DNA of 64,000 nucleotides from Candidatus Stoquefichus sp. SB1 (lineage in GTDB: Bacteria; Bacillota_I; Bacilli_A; Erysipelotrichales; Coprobacillaceae), in the NCBI RefSeq assembly GCF_001244545.1, contig NZ_LN852696.1:806001-870000 (forward strand), read 5' to 3'. The position numbers and the translations under genes are program-made. Below the pieces are notes generated by a model that ran no database searches, had not been told where the DNA came from, and saw only the letters and a list, made by a program, of their open reading frames with translations. Shown here piece by piece: positions 23,264-38,888 of this stretch. Positions within the stretch are counted from its first letter, which is position 1. Every line of letters begins with the position of its first letter.

Positions 23264-24160
23264 ATGAAAAAATTAGTGTTTGATGTTGGTGCAAGTGCTA
23301 TTAAATATGCTTTGATGGATAATGATGCCCATATTTATGAGAAAGGTAAAGAAGTGACTCCTCATGATCATTTTGAACATTTTCTAACTATTTTACAGAC
23401 GATTTATGAGAAATATCAAAATGAAATAGATGGAATGGCTTTGAGTTTACCTGGCACAATTGATTCAGAGCTTGGGCAAATTTATGCACCTGGTGGATTG
23501 TTATATAATGAAAATATCAATCTAGTCAATGAAATGCATCGTTTTACTCAATTGCCAATTGCGATTGAAAATGATGGGAAAAGTGCAGCTTTAGCAGAAG
23601 TCTGGAAAGGACATTTGAAAGATTGTCAAAATGGTATTGTGATTGTTGTGGGAAGTGGATTAGGTGGTGGAATTATTAAGGATTGTCAGCTATGGAAAGG
23701 AGAGCATCTTTTTGCAGGTGAATTTTCCTATATTTATCAGGGTGAAGGTACTTCTTTTATGGAAAATGCCTGGGCTGTTAAAGGCAGTACAACAGCTTTG
23801 ATTATGGATGTTGCACGGCGAAAAAACTTAGAGATGAGTCAATTAGATGGTTATCGTATTTTTGGGTTAATTGAACAATTAGATCAAGATGCTTGCGCTG
23901 CTTTACAAACTTTAGCGCAGAACTTGGCTACTGGAATTTATAATTTACAATGTATTTTAGATCCACAGAAGATATTGATTGGTGGTGGCATTAGTCAACA
24001 ACCCATTTTAATTGAAAAGATTCAAGAAGAATTAAATAAGATTTATGAAAATATTCCTTTTGATATTCCTCATGCTTATATTGAAAATTGTTGTTATTAT
24101 AATGACTCTAATTTAATTGGGGCTTTATATCGTTTTTTAATGATGTATCCATCAGAATGA
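23264..24160 (+). CDS. ROK-family sugar kinase
   Basis: 298 residues. The N-terminal phosphate-binding motif is FDVGASAIKYAL, the catalytic region is ENDGKSAALAE, and the glycine-rich motif is GSGLGGGIIKDCQLWKG followed by GEFSYI. The usual ROK zinc-binding cysteine cluster is absent, as in several cytoplasmic ROK sugar kinases. It starts 9 bases after the esterase stop. It is probably a hexose kinase acting on the product of the operon; the sugar is unknown. Confidence 0.88.
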   Translation: MKKLVFDVGASAIKYALMDNDAHIYEKGKEVTPHDHFEHFLTILQTIYEKYQNEIDGMALSLPGTIDSELGQIYAPGGLLYNENINLVNEMHRFTQLPIAIENDGKSAALAEVWKGHLKDCQNGIVIVVGSGLGGGIIKDCQLWKGEHLFAGEFSYIYQGEGTSFMENAWAVKGSTTALIMDVARRKNLEMSQLDGYRIFGLIEQLDQDACAALQTLAQNLATGIYNLQCILDPQKILIGGGISQQPILIEKIQEELNKIYENIPFDIPHAYIENCCYYNDSNLIGALYRFLMMYPSE

Positions 24161-25097: not shown

Positions 25098-25407
25098 TAA
25101 TAATTTCACTTAAAAATTTTTCTATTATGATAAGTATATGCTTATCAGTACTTAAAATATAGATGATTAGGGAAAAAATAATTCTAATGATGAACAATTA
25201 ATATTTAATGTGATTTAGCAAATAGAAGAAGATATTCTCCTTAATAATATATGTTAACTTTTTGAGTACATATATTATTTATGATGAGTAAAGATATAAT
25301 CAATTTGCATCATGACTTTTGTTTGATGTTTCTATTTGGGAATGTTAAAATAAAACTGAAATAAACATCATATTATGAATGAATATCATCAGAAAAGGGG
25401 AATAGAA
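25098..25407. other. Non-coding leader upstream of the EIIB-ROK gene
   Basis: No gene is seen. It holds two inverted repeats. TGATAAG-N6-CTTATCA lies at 25128-25147. A longer one, AATAATATATGT-N13-ACATATATTATT, has arms at 25243-25254 and 25268-25279. Either may be an operator. A CDS start with AAAAGGGG follows at 25408. Confidence 0.55.
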
Positions 25408-26817
25408 ATGAGCGAAGATAATAGAGTATTTGATTTTAAAACATGGATACAACAACAGCAAACAAATGATTATCAAATTGTTTTGGAAGATGATCATCTG
25501 ATTAAACTGATAACTGACTGTGCAGAGGCATCTATTTTATTTATAGAAATAGATAACAATACAATTGTAGAATTTCAGATTATTTCTCAAAAAGATCACG
25601 CTACCAAATTTTATCTTCATTTTGAACTCAATGATGAAGAACATGCAAAACAACTCTATAATGAAATGGTAGAAACATTAGTTGGTCTTAAAGATCAAAA
25701 GACATTACGTGTATTATTATCATGTTCTGCTGGTTTAACAACATCTATGTTTGCAGAAAACTTAAATTCAACAGCAGAAATGTTAGGTTTAGATTATCAA
25801 TTTAATGCTGTTTCTTATTTAAGTATTTATGAAGAAGCAGAAAATTATGATATGATCTTAATTGCTCCACAAATTGGTTATATGTTAAAACGATTACAAG
25901 AAAGTTTACCAGATAAACCTATCTTACAAATTCCAACAGCAGTTTTTGCTGCCTATGATGCTTTATCAGCATTAAAATTTATACAAAATGAATTAGAAAA
26001 ATTTCATCAAGATCAAGAACCAAAAGAAAAGAAATGTGTTCATTGTGTTCAATATGAAAAACGTATTTTATCAATTGTTATTTTAACAAATAAAGAACAA
26101 ACCCGTATTTATTATCAATTACAAGATAAATGTGAGATTATCGATAGTCATGTTATTATTAAACCTTCAATGAATATTTATGATCTTTATGATGTTATTG
26201 ATACAGTATTATTAAAACATTCTTTTATTGATATGATTGGTATTGCGACACCAGGTATTGTTGAAGACTATAAACAATTAAAGAGTCCAGTTCACGGTGA
26301 AACAATTGATATCAAAAAGGACTTTGAAGATAAATATCATATTGATGTTTTTGTTTATAATAATGCCAATGCTGCTGTTGTTGGTTTTTCATTAGAACAT
26401 CCAGAATATCAAAATATTATTTTCCATTCTCAGCCTTTTGGTTTTGGTGTGGGTGGACAAGGAATTATGGTGAATGGAAAAGTAGTAAGAGGAAAGAATG
26501 GTATTGCAGGGGAATTGAAATATTTTATTAGACGCATGCAGTTATCTGATGATGTTTCTAAATTAATCTGGACACAACATGGGGCATTAGAAATTGTAAC
26601 CAAATCATTATTGCCAACAATTTCTATTATTGGACCAGAAGCTGTGGCTATCAGTGCACCTATGACTCCTGATATGCAAGAAGTTAGAAACACTTTAGGT
26701 TCTTTTATACCCGAAGAATTTATGCCAGATTTTTATTATATTAAAGAAGCCAGTGATTATATGTTAAATGGTATTACTGAGTTATGTGTGAGATATATTA
26801 AAAAGGGAAATCAATAA
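25408..26817 (+). CDS. PTS EIIB-like / ROK-like fusion protein
   Basis: 469 residues, soluble. Residues 1-95 are of unknown type. Residues about 102-205 are a lactose/cellobiose-type EIIB fold with the phospho-cysteine Cys106 (VLLSCSAGLTTSMFA) and the PQIGYMLK motif. Residues about 225-469 resemble a ROK kinase, with GIATPGIVED, NNANAAVVG and GVGGQGIMVNGKVVRG. The N-terminal phosphate loop is degenerate (VILTNKEQTRIYY) and there is no zinc motif, so kinase activity is unlikely. The start at 25408 follows AAAAGGGG; an upstream ATG at 25375 lacks one. It may sense PTS phosphorylation and sugar together. A 3' fragment is repeated at 32909. Confidence 0.82.
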   Translation: MSEDNRVFDFKTWIQQQQTNDYQIVLEDDHLIKLITDCAEASILFIEIDNNTIVEFQIISQKDHATKFYLHFELNDEEHAKQLYNEMVETLVGLKDQKTLRVLLSCSAGLTTSMFAENLNSTAEMLGLDYQFNAVSYLSIYEEAENYDMILIAPQIGYMLKRLQESLPDKPILQIPTAVFAAYDALSALKFIQNELEKFHQDQEPKEKKCVHCVQYEKRILSIVILTNKEQTRIYYQLQDKCEIIDSHVIIKPSMNIYDLYDVIDTVLLKHSFIDMIGIATPGIVEDYKQLKSPVHGETIDIKKDFEDKYHIDVFVYNNANAAVVGFSLEHPEYQNIIFHSQPFGFGVGGQGIMVNGKVVRGKNGIAGELKYFIRRMQLSDDVSKLIWTQHGALEIVTKSLLPTISIIGPEAVAISAPMTPDMQEVRNTLGSFIPEEFMPDFYYIKEASDYMLNGITELCVRYIKKGNQ

Positions 26818-26830
26818 TTGTTGATGAAAA
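26408..26830 (+). repeat. Direct repeat copy 1: 3' end of the EIIB-ROK gene
   Basis: About 420 bases here are roughly 98% identical to 32909-33327; I count about seven mismatches within the coding part. Similarity ends shortly after the stop codon. Confidence 0.93.
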
Positions 26831-26835
26831 TAAAT

Positions 26836-32908: not shown

Positions 32909-33318
32909 ATCAAAATATTATTTTCCATTCTCAGCCTTTTGGTTTTGGTGTGGGTGGACAAGGAATTATGGTTAATGGGAAAGTAGTAAGAGGAAAGAAT
33001 GGTATTGCAGGGGAATTGAAATATTTTATTAGACGCATGCAGTTATCTGATGATGTTTCTAAATTAATCTGGACACAACATGGGGCATTAGAAATTGTAA
33101 CCAAATCATTATTGCTAACAATTTCTATTATTGGACCAGAAGCTGTGGCTATCAGTGCACCTATGACTCCTGATATGCAAGAAGTTAGAAACACTTTAGG
33201 TTCTTTTATACCCGAAGAATTTATGCCAGAATTTTATTATATTAAAGAAGCTAGTGACTATATGTTAAATGGTATTACTGAGTTATGTGTGAGATATATT
33301 AAAAAGGGAGATCAATAA
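32909..33318 (+). pseudogene. 3' fragment of the EIIB-ROK gene (copy 2)
   Basis: This encodes only the last ~135 residues of the fusion protein at 25408 (from FHSQPFGFGVGGQG to the stop), about 98% identical at the DNA level. It lacks the N-terminal, EIIB and first half of the ROK region. No ribosome binding site or start is evident, so it is a fragment left by recombination. The repeat extends a few bases past the stop. Confidence 0.9.
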
Positions 33319-33829
33319 TTGTTGATGAAGATGAAAAGATGATTAAATAAAGTATTATTTAAAGGCATCAACTGATATTAATTTTAGTGTAATATATAAT
33401 AATTGGGAGAGTTTTCTAATCTTGTTGTATCATAATTAATCACAATATTAAGAGTGAAATCATATTATTCCAGTTATGTGTAGAGTGTTAATTACAACGA
33501 TTTTGAATGCAACTCTGTTTATTGTTAGGTAAAATAGATAATTTTTCATTAGAATAACTAAAGAAAAGGATGAAATATTGAAAAATAATTTCATCCTTTT
33601 AAGTATTTATTTCATAACAATCTTTATATCGTTTGTTGTCCATAATTTTTTTGTCCTGATATAAATCGCTTCCATAGGTTGAAAAAGAAATTATGAATCT
33701 TAGATATCATTGATTTGCGAAATAGTTATTGTTATAATTGTAATATATTCATATCATAAAAATATGTATCATCATTAGTATTTTTTAGGATGGATTATCG
33801 TTTCACTGTGATAGAAAAAGGTGAATTTT
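33319..33829. other. Non-coding region after the ROK fragment
   Basis: No intact gene is seen. A strong hairpin at 33564-33600 (13-base-pair stem AAAAGGATGAAAT / ATTTCATCCTTTT) looks like an intrinsic terminator of a vanished gene. Confidence 0.5.
33564..33600 (+). terminator. Orphan intrinsic terminator
   Basis: 13-base-pair stem with an 11-base loop and T-rich end. No intact gene precedes it. Confidence 0.65.
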
Positions 33830-34265: not shown

Positions 34266-34306
34266 ATGATATGTTGAATTAAACATCGGTATAAGGGAGA
34301 ATGGAA

Positions 34307-36247
34307 ATGAAAAAGAAAAAACGAATTGGGTGTATTTGGTGTATGGTGCTACTGCTTGCGGTCTTTTCTATTTCCTTAGATGGATGTAGCAGGAAGAAGG
34401 AAAAAACCAAGGTTACATTATTATATTCTACGGAATTTAAACAATTTAAGCAATTGGTTGAAGAAACCTATGATGATATTGAACTTGTATATGAACGTAC
34501 ACCTTATTTAAGTGAGCAATTTAGAAAATTAGCAAAAGGTGTAGGACCAGATATTGTGATCTCTAGTCAACCAAATTTTGAAAATATGCAAACTTATTTG
34601 CTCGATCTCAGCGATACCTTGGCTAGTAGTCAATATGATAGTACTGTTACTTCAAAATTGATGGTAGATGGAAAAAATTATATGCTGCCACTACCAGGAA
34701 CTTATTATAGTTATATTATTAATGAAACATTATTTAGGAAAGCAGGTCTTGCCTTTCCTACATCATTAAAAGAATTAGAAACTGCCTTAACTACACTAAA
34801 AGAAATGGGCTTAGGTGTAGGGGAGGATGGCATTAACTTTAGTATGGAAAGCGATTATAATACAAGTCTAGGGATGTTTTTTGTAGGTGCCATGGTCCCT
34901 GATTTCCTTGGGACGGTTGAGGGCGTGAAGTGGCTTGCAGCACTAGAAAGAAAAGAAAGTACCTTTACAGGAACGTTTGAAAAAGCATTTACCTTCTCTA
35001 ATTCCTTGATGTCTGCCAAAGTATTGGAACCAGATGCGATTGCTTTAAAACGAAATAGTATCTTAATTCCAGAAAGAATGGGTTCAGGAAATTTAGCCGC
35101 AGCGTTTGGAAGTTCAAATTTAATGATGCAGATTGTCGAAGAAAATGAAGCAAATGTTGAAGCAGGGAAAGCAGAGGCATATGAATATCGAATGCTACCT
35201 TTGTTATCTGATGAAGGAAATCATCCTTGGGTCATGTATTCTCCTATTGGATATGTTGGTATCAATGCTGCAATCTCTGATGAGAAAAAAGAAGCAAGTA
35301 AAAAGGTGATTGAACTTTTATCAACCGAAAAGGGGCAAAAAGCAATCATGAGTGACTTAAAAAGTGAGTATTCTTATTTGAAAAATGATGAGAATAATAA
35401 AGATAATATGCCTAAAGGAATTGCTGAATATATCGAAGAGGGATATGTATATAATGTACAATTTCCTGATAGTCTCATTGAATATTTGGGAATGCAGGCA
35501 AGAAAGGTTTTTGAAAAAGCTAGCAGTGTAACGGAAATTTTGCAAGCAGTGGATAAGTACTATTTATATGGTTCTAAAGATGCAGAGTATGATTTATCAA
35601 ACGTAGGTTTTCTTGATAATGACTTATTGTTAGAAAATTATAATGTTAGAAAAGGTGAAACCAAACTTGGAAATTTCATCACGAACAGTATCAAATTAGC
35701 GTCTCATGCAGATATTGCAGTTGCCAATGGGGGTGCTATTCGCTCAAGTTTGTACCAAGGGGATGTCTATGGAGAAGATTTACGTGCGGTGTGCCCTTTT
35801 GATGATCAAATTGTCGTGCTGAAAGTCACAGGTGAAGATATCTGGAAGATGCTAGAAAATAGTTTAACCACTTATACGGATGAATTCCCAGGAGGAAGAT
35901 TTTTACAAGTATCTGGTATTCATTATACATTTGATAGTTCTAAACCAGTTGGAAGTCGTCTGCAGTCTGTGGTATTGCATGATGGAACAGCGATTCAACG
36001 CAATCAGTTCTATACAGTGGCCGTGACTGATTATATGGCAGGAAAACAGGGCTATGCTGAAAGCAATGGTGATGGATATGTGATGTTGAATTATTATGAT
36101 GAAGCAACTAAAAAAGGAAATGTACAACTTGTGGAAGAAACGCACATGACGTTTCAAGATGCAATGAAAATATATTTTGAGTATAATAAGGATCAGACGA
36201 TTCATGTGGAATTAGATAACAGGATTGTGGATAATGCTCATAAATAG
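34307..36247 (+). CDS. Lipoprotein: solute-binding domain fused to 5'-nucleotidase C-terminal domain
   Basis: 646 residues. The signal peptide ends at SLDGC (Cys27; the Asp before Gly is unusual in a lipobox). Residues about 35-415 are a family-1 extracellular solute-binding fold (VTLLYSTEF, GPDIVISSQPNF, MLPLPGTYYSYIINETLFRKAG). Residues about 440-620 match the 5'-nucleotidase C-terminal domain (LGNFITNSIK, ADIAVANGGAIRSSL, QIVVLKVTGEDIWKMLE, FLQVSGIHYTFD). The metallophosphatase domain that normally carries catalysis is absent, so this part probably only binds a nucleoside or nucleotide. The start at 34307 is chosen for spacing from AAGGGAGA. A sensor kinase follows 28 bases later. Confidence 0.85.
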   Translation: MKKKKRIGCIWCMVLLLAVFSISLDGCSRKKEKTKVTLLYSTEFKQFKQLVEETYDDIELVYERTPYLSEQFRKLAKGVGPDIVISSQPNFENMQTYLLDLSDTLASSQYDSTVTSKLMVDGKNYMLPLPGTYYSYIINETLFRKAGLAFPTSLKELETALTTLKEMGLGVGEDGINFSMESDYNTSLGMFFVGAMVPDFLGTVEGVKWLAALERKESTFTGTFEKAFTFSNSLMSAKVLEPDAIALKRNSILIPERMGSGNLAAAFGSSNLMMQIVEENEANVEAGKAEAYEYRMLPLLSDEGNHPWVMYSPIGYVGINAAISDEKKEASKKVIELLSTEKGQKAIMSDLKSEYSYLKNDENNKDNMPKGIAEYIEEGYVYNVQFPDSLIEYLGMQARKVFEKASSVTEILQAVDKYYLYGSKDAEYDLSNVGFLDNDLLLENYNVRKGETKLGNFITNSIKLASHADIAVANGGAIRSSLYQGDVYGEDLRAVCPFDDQIVVLKVTGEDIWKMLENSLTTYTDEFPGGRFLQVSGIHYTFDSSKPVGSRLQSVVLHDGTAIQRNQFYTVAVTDYMAGKQGYAESNGDGYVMLNYYDEATKKGNVQLVEETHMTFQDAMKIYFEYNKDQTIHVELDNRIVDNAHK

Positions 36248-36275: not shown

Positions 36276-38888
36276 ATGAAGGGTAGGAAATTTTTACAAT
36301 CAAAAAGAAATAGAAGGATATTCCTTTTTCTTTTCTTTGCAATTTTGCTGTTGTTAGGAATATCTGCTTTTTACTCTTACCAAAAAGAAGCGAAGCGGAC
36401 AGTATCTAAAATCAGTCAAGTTTATTTACAAGAAATGTCAGAACAAATGAATAATCATTTTAAAACGAATTTGGATAGTTTATATGCGCAGATTGAAACG
36501 ATCGGAAATTCTGTTTCCGCTTCAGAATTAGAAAGTGAAGAACATTTGCTTGCTTTTTTAAATCGTGTCAAAGAAGATAATCAATTTTCACATGTAGCGC
36601 TGATAAGTGAACAAGGGATTGCTTATTCTTCCGATGGTATCTTTCCAGCAATTTCAAAGATTTCTGGACTTCATCAATTATTGGAAGGTAATGAGAAACT
36701 TTTATCAGTAAACGAAACTATCTGGGGAAATGATATGATGTTATTGGGTGCAACCATTGATGATAAAGTGTTTTTTAATGATCACTTTATTGCAGTTATA
36801 GCCGGTATTGATACATCAATTATTGGTGAAAAGCTTGCATTAAATAAAGCTGGGACTTCCTCATATTCTAATATTATCGCACTTGATGGCACTTTTATCA
36901 TTCGCAATTCTAATACGGATGTGATGTTACAGGGAACTAATCTATATTCTATTTTAGAACATCAATCTGTTTTTGATGAAGGATATTCATTAGAAAATCT
37001 TAAACAGAACATTCAAGATGGAAAGGAAGATATGATATCTTTACGGTTGTATAATCATCATGAGTATTTATATTATGCTCCGATAGCTGGAACAAATTGG
37101 TATATGTGTACAAGTATGGCATATACAACTGTAAATTCACAAGTCTCAGCATTGAGCAACTTTCTATTGATTGTAGCAACTGGAATTTTTATTTTGATTT
37201 TATTGGTAATTGGAACTTTCTTTTTCTTACATCAGCAAAGTGAAAAACGCTATCGTGAACAAATTATCAAAGAGAAAGAAGAAGCAGAAAAAGCAAATCA
37301 GGCAAAAAGTAATTTCCTATCTTCTATGTCACATGAGATACGGACACCATTAAATGGCATTATTGGAATGACGGAAGTTGGAAAACATTACATTAACCAA
37401 CCTAGCCGTATGAAAAATTGCATGGATAAAATATCCTTATCTTCTAAGCATCTTCTTACTTTAATCAATGATATTTTAGATATGTCTAAGATTGAAAGTG
37501 GAAAAATTGAATTACATAATGAAGCATTTGATTTCGGTACATTATTGAAATCGTTAACGACTGTATTCTACTCTCAGGCAAAAGAAAAAGGTATCCGCTT
37601 TGAAGTTCTACTTGATGGAATTATTGATAGTTTTCTTATCAGTGATGCACTTCGTTTAAATCAGATTCTTACGAATATGATTTCTAACGCACTCAAATTT
37701 ACGCCAGAAAATGGAGTTGTAGAATTGCGTGTAGAAAGAATGCAGCATCATGCAGCGAAGGAAGATGAAGTTTGGTATCATTTTGTAGTGAAAGATACTG
37801 GATGTGGCATAGCAGAAGAGAATCTACAGCGTATCTTTGAACCTTTTACACAAGAAGATAGTGGAGTTGCCCGACGTTATGGAGGTACAGGGTTAGGATT
37901 ACCAATCAGTAAACGATTTGTAGAATTGATGGGCGGAAGAATCTATGTAGAAAGCAAGGTCAATGTTGGAAGTAGTTTCCATGTAGAACTTCCTGTTATC
38001 TTGCCAAAGGAACAGCCAATAGAAAAACTATGCATGGAAAATAAGGAAAAAGTACTGATTCTAAATCAAGTTGATGAAATCAGAATGCAGTTAGCCTTGT
38101 TATTGGAGCATGAGGGATTCTTAGTTGAAATAGCACAATCTATGGATATTGCTCTAGACTTGCTGAAACAGGCAGCGGTCAATCAAGAAGACTTTACTAT
38201 GTGTCTCATACGATGGGATTTTGGCACAGATATGCGCCATATTGTACAACAAATTAAAGAAGTAGCTAAACCATCCATTCGTATCGTTGTAACAGGTTTT
38301 GATAAGGATGAGTTGGAAGAGGTACGTCAACAAATGGCAGGAAATGATGTATTGTGTCATCCTGTCTTCCATAAAGATTTGCAAGATCTAATGTCACGTC
38401 TTTATCATGTAGCATTAGATGTGAAAGAAGTTCCTACAAAAAAAGCACTCGCTGGTAAACATGTTCTCATTGTCGAAGATAATAAGTTGAATCTTGAAAT
38501 TGCTGTTGAACTCTTATCTATGGATGATGCTTGTGTAGATACTGCTAGTGATGGGGAAGAGGCTGTGAAAAAATTTGCAGAATCGAGTGAAGGCTACTAT
38601 GATTTGATTCTTATGGATGTTCAAATGCCAGTTATGGATGGATATCGAGCTACCCAAATGATTCGTCATCTAGCACGACCCGATGCAGAAAGCATATTGA
38701 TTATAGCAATGACAGCCAATGCATTCCAAGAAGATATTAATCGTTGCCTCGCATGTGGTATGAATGGGCATATTGGCAAACCATTTATTGTCGAAGATAT
38801 TTATCAATGTTATGAAAAAACGCGGAAAGAAGCCGCTGCTTCTTATAATCTGCATCATGAGGAAAATGATGAGCCTCATGAACTATGA
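36276..38888 (+). CDS. Membrane hybrid histidine kinase with Cache-like sensor
   Basis: 870 residues. Membrane segments near 14-33 and 292-318 enclose an extracellular region of about 260 residues of dCache type (HVALISEQGIAYSSDG; YYAPIAGTNWYMCTSM). A coiled linker leads to HisKA with His353 (SMSHEIRTPLNGIIG) and an ATPase domain (DTGCGIA, GTGLGLPIS). Two receivers follow. The first (about 590-700) lacks the acceptor Asp (LIRWDF where LIDWKM is usual). The second has Asp781 (MDVQMPVMDG). It is in one operon with the upstream binding lipoprotein, which probably presents the ligand. Confidence 0.9.
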   Translation: MKGRKFLQSKRNRRIFLFLFFAILLLLGISAFYSYQKEAKRTVSKISQVYLQEMSEQMNNHFKTNLDSLYAQIETIGNSVSASELESEEHLLAFLNRVKEDNQFSHVALISEQGIAYSSDGIFPAISKISGLHQLLEGNEKLLSVNETIWGNDMMLLGATIDDKVFFNDHFIAVIAGIDTSIIGEKLALNKAGTSSYSNIIALDGTFIIRNSNTDVMLQGTNLYSILEHQSVFDEGYSLENLKQNIQDGKEDMISLRLYNHHEYLYYAPIAGTNWYMCTSMAYTTVNSQVSALSNFLLIVATGIFILILLVIGTFFFLHQQSEKRYREQIIKEKEEAEKANQAKSNFLSSMSHEIRTPLNGIIGMTEVGKHYINQPSRMKNCMDKISLSSKHLLTLINDILDMSKIESGKIELHNEAFDFGTLLKSLTTVFYSQAKEKGIRFEVLLDGIIDSFLISDALRLNQILTNMISNALKFTPENGVVELRVERMQHHAAKEDEVWYHFVVKDTGCGIAEENLQRIFEPFTQEDSGVARRYGGTGLGLPISKRFVELMGGRIYVESKVNVGSSFHVELPVILPKEQPIEKLCMENKEKVLILNQVDEIRMQLALLLEHEGFLVEIAQSMDIALDLLKQAAVNQEDFTMCLIRWDFGTDMRHIVQQIKEVAKPSIRIVVTGFDKDELEEVRQQMAGNDVLCHPVFHKDLQDLMSRLYHVALDVKEVPTKKALAGKHVLIVEDNKLNLEIAVELLSMDDACVDTASDGEEAVKKFAESSEGYYDLILMDVQMPVMDGYRATQMIRHLARPDAESILIIAMTANAFQEDINRCLACGMNGHIGKPFIVEDIYQCYEKTRKEAAASYNLHHEENDEPHEL

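Follow-up and report, generated by a model that had tools for sequence, protein, structure and literature searches.

EIIB-containing regulators and ROK repressors under the control of an EIIB are both known. The Escherichia coli ROK repressor Mlc is sequestered by the dephosphorylated EIIB of EIICB-Glc, as described previously (PMC3901232), and MtlR and similar regulators contain an EIIB-like domain whose Cys is conserved (PMC8560693). What is new in the protein described here is that both components are combined in a single polypeptide that has no DNA-binding domain; in the open-licence literature, judged by title and the start of the abstract, we found no paper on a ROK and EIIB fusion. The protein is encoded in the window, the 64,000-nucleotide stretch of the Candidatus Stoquefichus sp. 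SB1 genome that was analyzed, by an ORF of 469 aa at 25408-26817 (+) that joins an N-terminal alpha/beta domain to an EIIB domain and a ROK domain. An AGGGG ribosome-binding-like stretch precedes the ATG at 25408, and the longer start reported by the ORF finder, at 25375, is less likely than this ATG.

Pfam assigns aa 101-180 to PTS_IIB (E 1.4e-11; 45.3 bits against a cut-off of 23.6) and aa 272-370 to ROK (E 6.7e-12; 46 bits against a cut-off of 22.9), and these were the only matches at E<=1, with neither an HTH nor a PRD domain among them. An AlphaFold2 model computed from a 23-row alignment shows three domains (mean pLDDT 84.3, pTM 0.81), and a Foldseek search of the PDB with the C-terminal part recovered ROK kinases and Mlc, including the Mlc/EIIB complex 3bp8. 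Other genomes of the family encode relatives that are 56-75% identical across most of the protein, which makes this a real gene. A three-part protein at these coordinates and the absence of a helix-turn-helix were the core of the sequence-only reading, and both observations are confirmed by the Pfam, AlphaFold2, and Foldseek results. The features are as follows, with the evidence in parentheses.

25408..26817, + strand: whole gene, N-domain, EIIB and ROK, 469 aa (ORF, Pfam, AlphaFold2)
25429..25698, + strand: N-domain, aa 8-97, alpha-beta5-alpha, with a nearly invariant His71-Phe72 (model, alignment)
25702..26007, + strand: EIIB domain of the lactose/cellobiose type, aa 99-200 (Pfam, structural match)
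25723..25725, + strand: codon of Cys106, the predicted phosphorylation site (alignments)
26008..26055, + strand: linker, aa 201-216, of low model confidence (AlphaFold2)
26056..26805, + strand: ROK domain, aa 217-466; phosphate loop 1, ExGH and the zinc motif absent (Pfam, model, motif scan)
26359..26364, + strand: Asn318-Asn319 pocket motif (alignment)
26512..26514, + strand: Glu369 of the former ExGH motif (alignment)
32909..33336, + strand: broken duplicate of the 3' end, matching at 98% over 428 columns (sequence match)

The last of these features repeats window positions 26408-26834, which comprise the 3' end of the fused gene and a short downstream stretch, at a distance of 6.5 kb. The repeats flank a block of small genes that includes two HTH_34 regulators, a protein with a C39-like peptidase domain, and others without a Pfam match, and the arrangement suggests an insertion or recombination event of which the 3' fragment is a remnant. 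Farther downstream, the gene at 34301-36247 encodes a 5'-nucleotidase C-terminal domain (PF02872) together with an N-terminal half that by eye resembles a solute-binding lipoprotein, and it adjoins a hybrid histidine kinase gene at 36276-38888.

The EIIB part matches the chitobiose EIIB structure 2wy2 with a TM score of 0.92 by target length (1.3 A over 102 columns; Foldseek, PDB). Its Cys106 is present in every row of a 23-row alignment assembled without reference to the Cys and in 84/84 fused proteins of a larger set that was partly selected through a Cys-bearing pattern. The same N-domain and EIIB also occur without a ROK part (hereafter N-EIIB), in proteins encoded beside a ROK gene (paired) or elsewhere (solo), and the Cys is retained in 7/7 paired and 8/8 solo forms as well as in 13/13 canonical EIIBs. 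Poor conservation of this residue had been named beforehand as an observation that would speak against the sequence-only reading, and the residue proved invariant in both sets. Several positions differ between the N-EIIB type and canonical EIIBs, with Thr for Ser at 111, Phe for Leu at 115, Ala mostly for Gly at 153, and Phe for Tyr at 180, and in a tree computed from 67 of 112 rows the N-EIIBs form a clade of their own that is set apart from the canonical EIIBs at 99/98.

The N-domain is predicted with confidence in isolation (pLDDT 91.6), and His71 is found in every N-domain that has a letter at this position (83/83 fused, 7/7 paired, and 8/8 solo). Comparison with the PDB returned weak matches only (best Foldseek E 0.4); by VIA-align the best match was the TriTu immunity protein (Z 8.8; Foldseek E 0.44 for the same match), with further middling matches to DR_1245 and YbjN, the Spa15 chaperone, and frataxin. 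The Pfam TriTu model was found in 2 of 50 N-domains at a weak best E of 0.0032, and a stand-alone relative scored 20.6 bits against it, under the cut-off of 27. The Foldseek and VIA-align matches are middling, and we claim no fold for this domain. Its description as an unrecognized N-terminal domain stands insofar as there is no clear fold match, but the domain is not peculiar to the fused protein: since it accompanies EIIB in stand-alone proteins too, it belongs to an N-EIIB module. A protein that still regulates through DNA or RNA, with the N-domain having taken over nucleic acid binding, would be in keeping with the conservation of this domain and with the presence of PURA and Whirly among its weak PDB matches. 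All such matches have E>=0.4, however, and the paired N-EIIBs possess the N-domain even though their ROK partner carries a winged helix-turn-helix (wHTH) in 6/7 cases, and we regard this alternative as unlikely.

A motif scan of the whole region after EIIB found the first phosphate loop, ExGH, and the zinc motif CxCGxxGC in 0 of 87 fused rows. The loop pattern did recover the ROK protein encoded upstream in the window and a ROK kinase row. The seven paired wHTH-ROKs are likewise all without the first phosphate loop, ExGH, and the zinc motif, and in a group of 42 other ROK rows, which includes a ROK kinase (L076), a ROK piece of a broken gene (L180), and rows without an individual wHTH check, the loop was found in one (the kinase), ExGH in one (L226), and the zinc motif in none. 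Because the paired and nearly all other ROK rows share the loss of these motifs, it predates the fusion, and we rejected motif loss as a mark of fusion on the grounds that unfused relatives (7/7 paired) are without the motifs as well. Absence of ExGH and CxCGxxGC is also a weak test for kinases, as both are missing from the upstream ROK protein (23264-24160, 1.2 kb upstream of the fused gene), a full-length match whose best model is the beta-glucoside kinase BglK at a score below that model's cut-off.

Residues of the putative sugar pocket are better preserved, with Asn318 in 86/87 fused rows and Glu369 in 85/87. Position 319, where ROK kinases have their catalytic Asp, is Asn in 44 fused rows (including the window protein), Asp in 42, and Glu in 1, and it is Asp in 7/7 paired proteins and 40/42 of the other rows. 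Among the 40 fused rows of a 67-row ROK tree, the 20 with Asn319, the window protein among them, group together in a clade (96/92) that contains no other row; by this tree, the kinase Asp changed to Asn once, in the window protein's subclade. The ROK fold itself, and the retention of Asp319 in the window protein's own paralog and in about half of the fused rows, could be taken as signs that the activity of a sugar kinase or another enzyme has persisted, but the first phosphate loop is absent from 87/87 fused rows, the window protein has Asn319, and the ancestry of the domain lies among wHTH-ROK proteins. We rejected a sugar kinase on the motifs (no first phosphate loop, 0/87; Asn319 in the window protein), and enzymatic activity of any kind seems very improbable. 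Ancestry and motifs together suggest that the ROK part is the sensor half of a regulator rather than an enzyme. The lack of the phosphate loop and zinc site had been read from the window protein alone and was borne out both there and in the 87 fused rows; kinase motifs in relatives, which would have counted against that reading, occur in no fused relative (0/87).

The fused proteins form a family of their own. By hand count of matches that span EIIB and ROK, the three-part protein is encoded, often in several copies, by 36 of the 43 genomes examined from the host's family, and 38 of the 43 have a match at E<=1e-30. In a phylum sample of 392 genomes, 19 gave a match at E<=1e-40, comprising 17 from the host's family and 2 from another family of the order, with one of the 19 (G042) matching over N-EIIB only. 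A scan of named genomes, in which loci were selected by two peptide patterns, one of them containing the Cys, yielded 235 loci; the best 80 of these come from Candidatus Stoquefichus, Thomasclavelia, Massilimicrobiota, other Erysipelotrichia, Selenomonadaceae, and Coriobacteriaceae/Atopobiaceae, and many are gut or rumen assemblies going by their titles. The search for the same architecture that the sequence-only reading had proposed thus recovered relatives in other Erysipelotrichia, Selenomonadaceae, and Coriobacteriia in addition to those of the 36 host-family genomes. De-duplication left 84 fused genes from 81 loci, several of them partial. The window's genome itself encodes a second full-length fused copy (36% identity), three stand-alone N-EIIB proteins, and one wHTH-ROK protein (L006). 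Fused genes in Selenomonadaceae occur in tandem (L079:7956-11389 and L092:9914-12812), with a stand-alone N-EIIB gene in front of those in L079.

The origin of the fusion can be traced through gene pairs. Seven genomes from four genera (G035, G036, G039, G041, G007, G011, and G027) have an N-EIIB gene directly upstream of a ROK gene whose product belongs to the same subtype and is extended at its N-terminus; the gene order is that of the fusion, and the two genes overlap or lie <=3 bp apart. The Pfam winged helix is above its cut-off in 2/7 of these paired ROK proteins (L181 and L219), and weak Pfam HTH matches below cut-off were found in 4/7 and none in L220. A winged-helix profile built from other wHTH-ROK proteins, without the seven, recovered 6/7 at E<=1e-5, with L220 at only E 0.28, and among the 144 sequences searched it matched no fused protein at E<0.1. 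In unfused relatives the wHTH sits before the ROK domain, where the fused protein has EIIB and the linker.

In the 67-row ROK tree, which was drawn from 137 rows by dropping seven and thinning others by hand, the fused ROK parts have a single origin and form one clade (100/94), the paired proteins form another (98/90), and the two join at 98/95 to the exclusion of the 20 other rows, such that the fused ROK parts are nested inside other wHTH-ROK proteins. The analysis of unfused genes covered 38 hand-picked stretches around wHTH-ROK-like matches. A FastTree analysis of all 137 rows, which has several long branches, agrees except for one row (L180, which represents the ROK portion of a disrupted fused gene) and supports the pairs at 83. 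The N-EIIB tree fits the fusion history, but more weakly than the ROK tree: it does not unite the pairs, and it places certain solo forms (L079 and L180) among the fused proteins, from which they probably derive. The simplest history suggested by these trees is one in which an N-EIIB gene came to lie beside a wHTH-ROK gene, after which the two genes fused once, with loss of the winged helix. The gene pairs and their sister position in the ROK tree make it most likely that an EIIB module replaced the DNA-binding domain of a repressor. For 19/40 unfused ROK genes of this subtype, the next gene, in the same orientation, encodes a PHP-domain protein (like L229:2550-3437; e.g., in L229 and L224), which makes up a regulator-enzyme pair; the 19 lie in the hand-picked stretches.

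ROK regulators dimerize, and the fused proteins belong to the same ROK subtype as the wHTH-ROKs in the ROK tree. The ROK part might accordingly pair with a wHTH-ROK of the same cell, the state of EIIB setting the DNA binding of the repressor in a mixed dimer. By hand count, 28 of the 36 fusion genomes, including the window's, also encode a wHTH-ROK of this subtype, and in the Solobacterium-type loci L081 and L082 a 314-aa ROK gene directly follows the fused gene, but Pfam found no HTH in that 314-aa protein and wHTH-ROKs may simply be common. The remaining 8 of 36 genomes (G005, G012, G018, G024 with a short match, G025, G026, G031, and G032) are without a wHTH-ROK at E<=1e-12, which weakens the case for an obligatory wHTH-ROK partner. 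We consider such an anti-repressor role doubtful.

The genomic surroundings of the fused genes show little association with PTS operons. A profile search of the window's genome found no EIIC or lactose-type EIIA within 6.5 kb of the window gene, and the nearest EIIC lies ~15 kb downstream (C6:847962), in agreement with the earlier remark that neither component is encoded nearby. Within 6.5 kb of the 84 fused genes we counted 8 EIIC, 5 canonical EIIB, and 1 EIIA (any of the three at 11), together with 9 GH1 glycosidases and 11 RpiR regulators; for the 44 genes with full 6.5-kb flanks the corresponding numbers were 4 with EIIC and 5 with any EIIA, EIIB, or EIIC. The EIIC and EIIA profiles were built from 29 and 5 proteins, respectively, of the window's own genome, and distant EIICs may escape them. 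With 55 EIIC matches in that genome, a random gene has an EIIC within 6.5 kb with a chance of ~23%, a figure that assumes a length of 910,000 for contig C5 and is a rough yardstick for other genomes. PTS genes near fused genes are not enriched and are, if anything, under-represented, and a close tie of the fused gene to PTS operons (EIIC near 8/84, or 4/44 with full flanks, versus ~23%) was rejected. A few loci (L056, L080, and L103) do lie in PTS or beta-glucoside runs, and there is no family-wide neighbor; the commonest neighbor cluster occurs at 12/84 fused genes, and the contexts show local habits only. One such habit is seen in the group of the 36% paralog, where a 142-aa P-loop gene follows ~80-120 bp on at nine loci (including L107:11475-11903 and L053); one scanned protein of this kind matches BREX-3 BrxF (80.5 bits; cut-off 50). 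Overall, the fused genes look like trans-acting orphans.

The intact Cys loop and the 55 EIIC matches in the window's genome would be compatible with a function of the fused protein in transport, as the EIIB of an EIIC from another locus, in which case the ROK part would be a regulatory appendage, and in the same genome a stand-alone N-EIIB directly follows an EIIC gene as the only EIIB of its run (L174:3975-6046). Most fused genes are nevertheless far from EIIC, and those N-EIIB or fused genes that do belong to PTS-like operons often have a canonical EIIB as a neighbor (L056, L080, L091, L129, and L186), and we find a transport function improbable. The L174 run (L174:3975-6282; G000:C2) also contains a 79-aa MtN3/PQ-loop (SemiSWEET-like) gene, Gfo/Idh oxidoreductases, and a HAD phosphatase, in addition to EIIC and the stand-alone N-EIIB. 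A possible phosphate donor is widespread: lactose-type EIIA was found in 36/36 good genomes of the host's family and 13/14 distant genomes, with six genes in the window's genome. No lactose-type EIIA was found in one fusion genome (G431), and because the protein also occurs in genomes that have no fusion, its presence indicates an available donor and nothing further.

We put the probability at about one half that the fused protein acts as a sensor coupled to the PTS, with protein contact as its means of signaling, and descends from an operon pair of N-EIIB and wHTH-ROK genes, with EIIB replacing the DNA-binding domain. In the mechanism that we infer, from phosphorylation and its donor through ligand binding and interdomain communication to the partner, the ancestor would have been an operon pair of genes, one for an N-EIIB protein and the other for a ROK repressor with a winged helix, and gene fusion would have brought the EIIB module into the place of the DNA-binding domain. 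A lactose-type EIIA would phosphorylate Cys106 when the influx of PTS sugar is low, and the phosphorylation state would alter the packing or positioning of the EIIB part on the ROK part. The ROK part may in addition accommodate a sugar, with Asn318, Asn319, and Glu369 as the contacts. As output, the binding of a partner protein and not of DNA would be altered, the protein working like Mlc and its EIIB partner but as one chain. The PTS-linked phosphorelay sensor of the sequence-only reading holds up in its conserved EIIB Cys, motif-less ROK part, absence of an HTH, and regulator-like origin, but the accompanying idea that the ROK part reads sugar is only hinted at by the retained pocket residues Asn318 and Glu369. 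More specifically, we tentatively propose a single-chain Mlc:EIIB switch without DNA, in which PTS phosphorylation of the built-in EIIB would control a pseudo-repressor ROK that acts on partner proteins. Such a switch would possibly be a soluble sensor engaged in neither sugar transport nor DNA binding, belonging to a protein family found in gut Firmicutes and Coriobacteriia.

If a PTS-coupled contact sensor is correct, bacteria would have an additional route for reading the state of sugar transport. The origin of the sensor would also be visible, from an EIIB-like gene beside a repressor gene to a fusion that kept the sensor half and dropped the DNA-binding half. Unfused wHTH-ROKs, gene pairs, and fused proteins all survive in related genomes, and the steps can therefore be compared. 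Many of these gut species have several copies, so the family may matter for their choice among sugars.

The nearest relatives of the fused ROK part are wHTH-ROK repressors like NagC and XylR, whose winged helix occupies the place of N-EIIB. The EIIB part shares its fold and Cys loop with the lactose/cellobiose/chitobiose EIIBs ChbB and CelA, but N-EIIBs form a separate clade (99/98), have the extra N-domain, and mostly have no EIIC nearby. The PRD regulators (MtlR and the AtxA/Mga group) resemble the fused protein as regulators with an EIIB-like domain, but they combine HTH and PRD with a galactitol-type EIIB-like domain, whereas the fused protein combines ROK with a cellobiose-type EIIB and has neither HTH nor PRD. 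MecR2 of Staphylococcus aureus, which acts as an anti-repressor by protein contact, is a structural match of the ROK family (4ija) without an EIIB domain. The likeness to Mlc and EIICB-Glc lies in an EIIB that governs a ROK regulator, and their complex 3bp8 is among the structural matches of the fused protein. Mlc keeps its zinc site. In that system, however, two proteins are involved, the EIIB is of the glucose type, and the DNA-binding part is kept, whereas the fused protein joins a cellobiose-type EIIB to a ROK part on one chain with no HTH.
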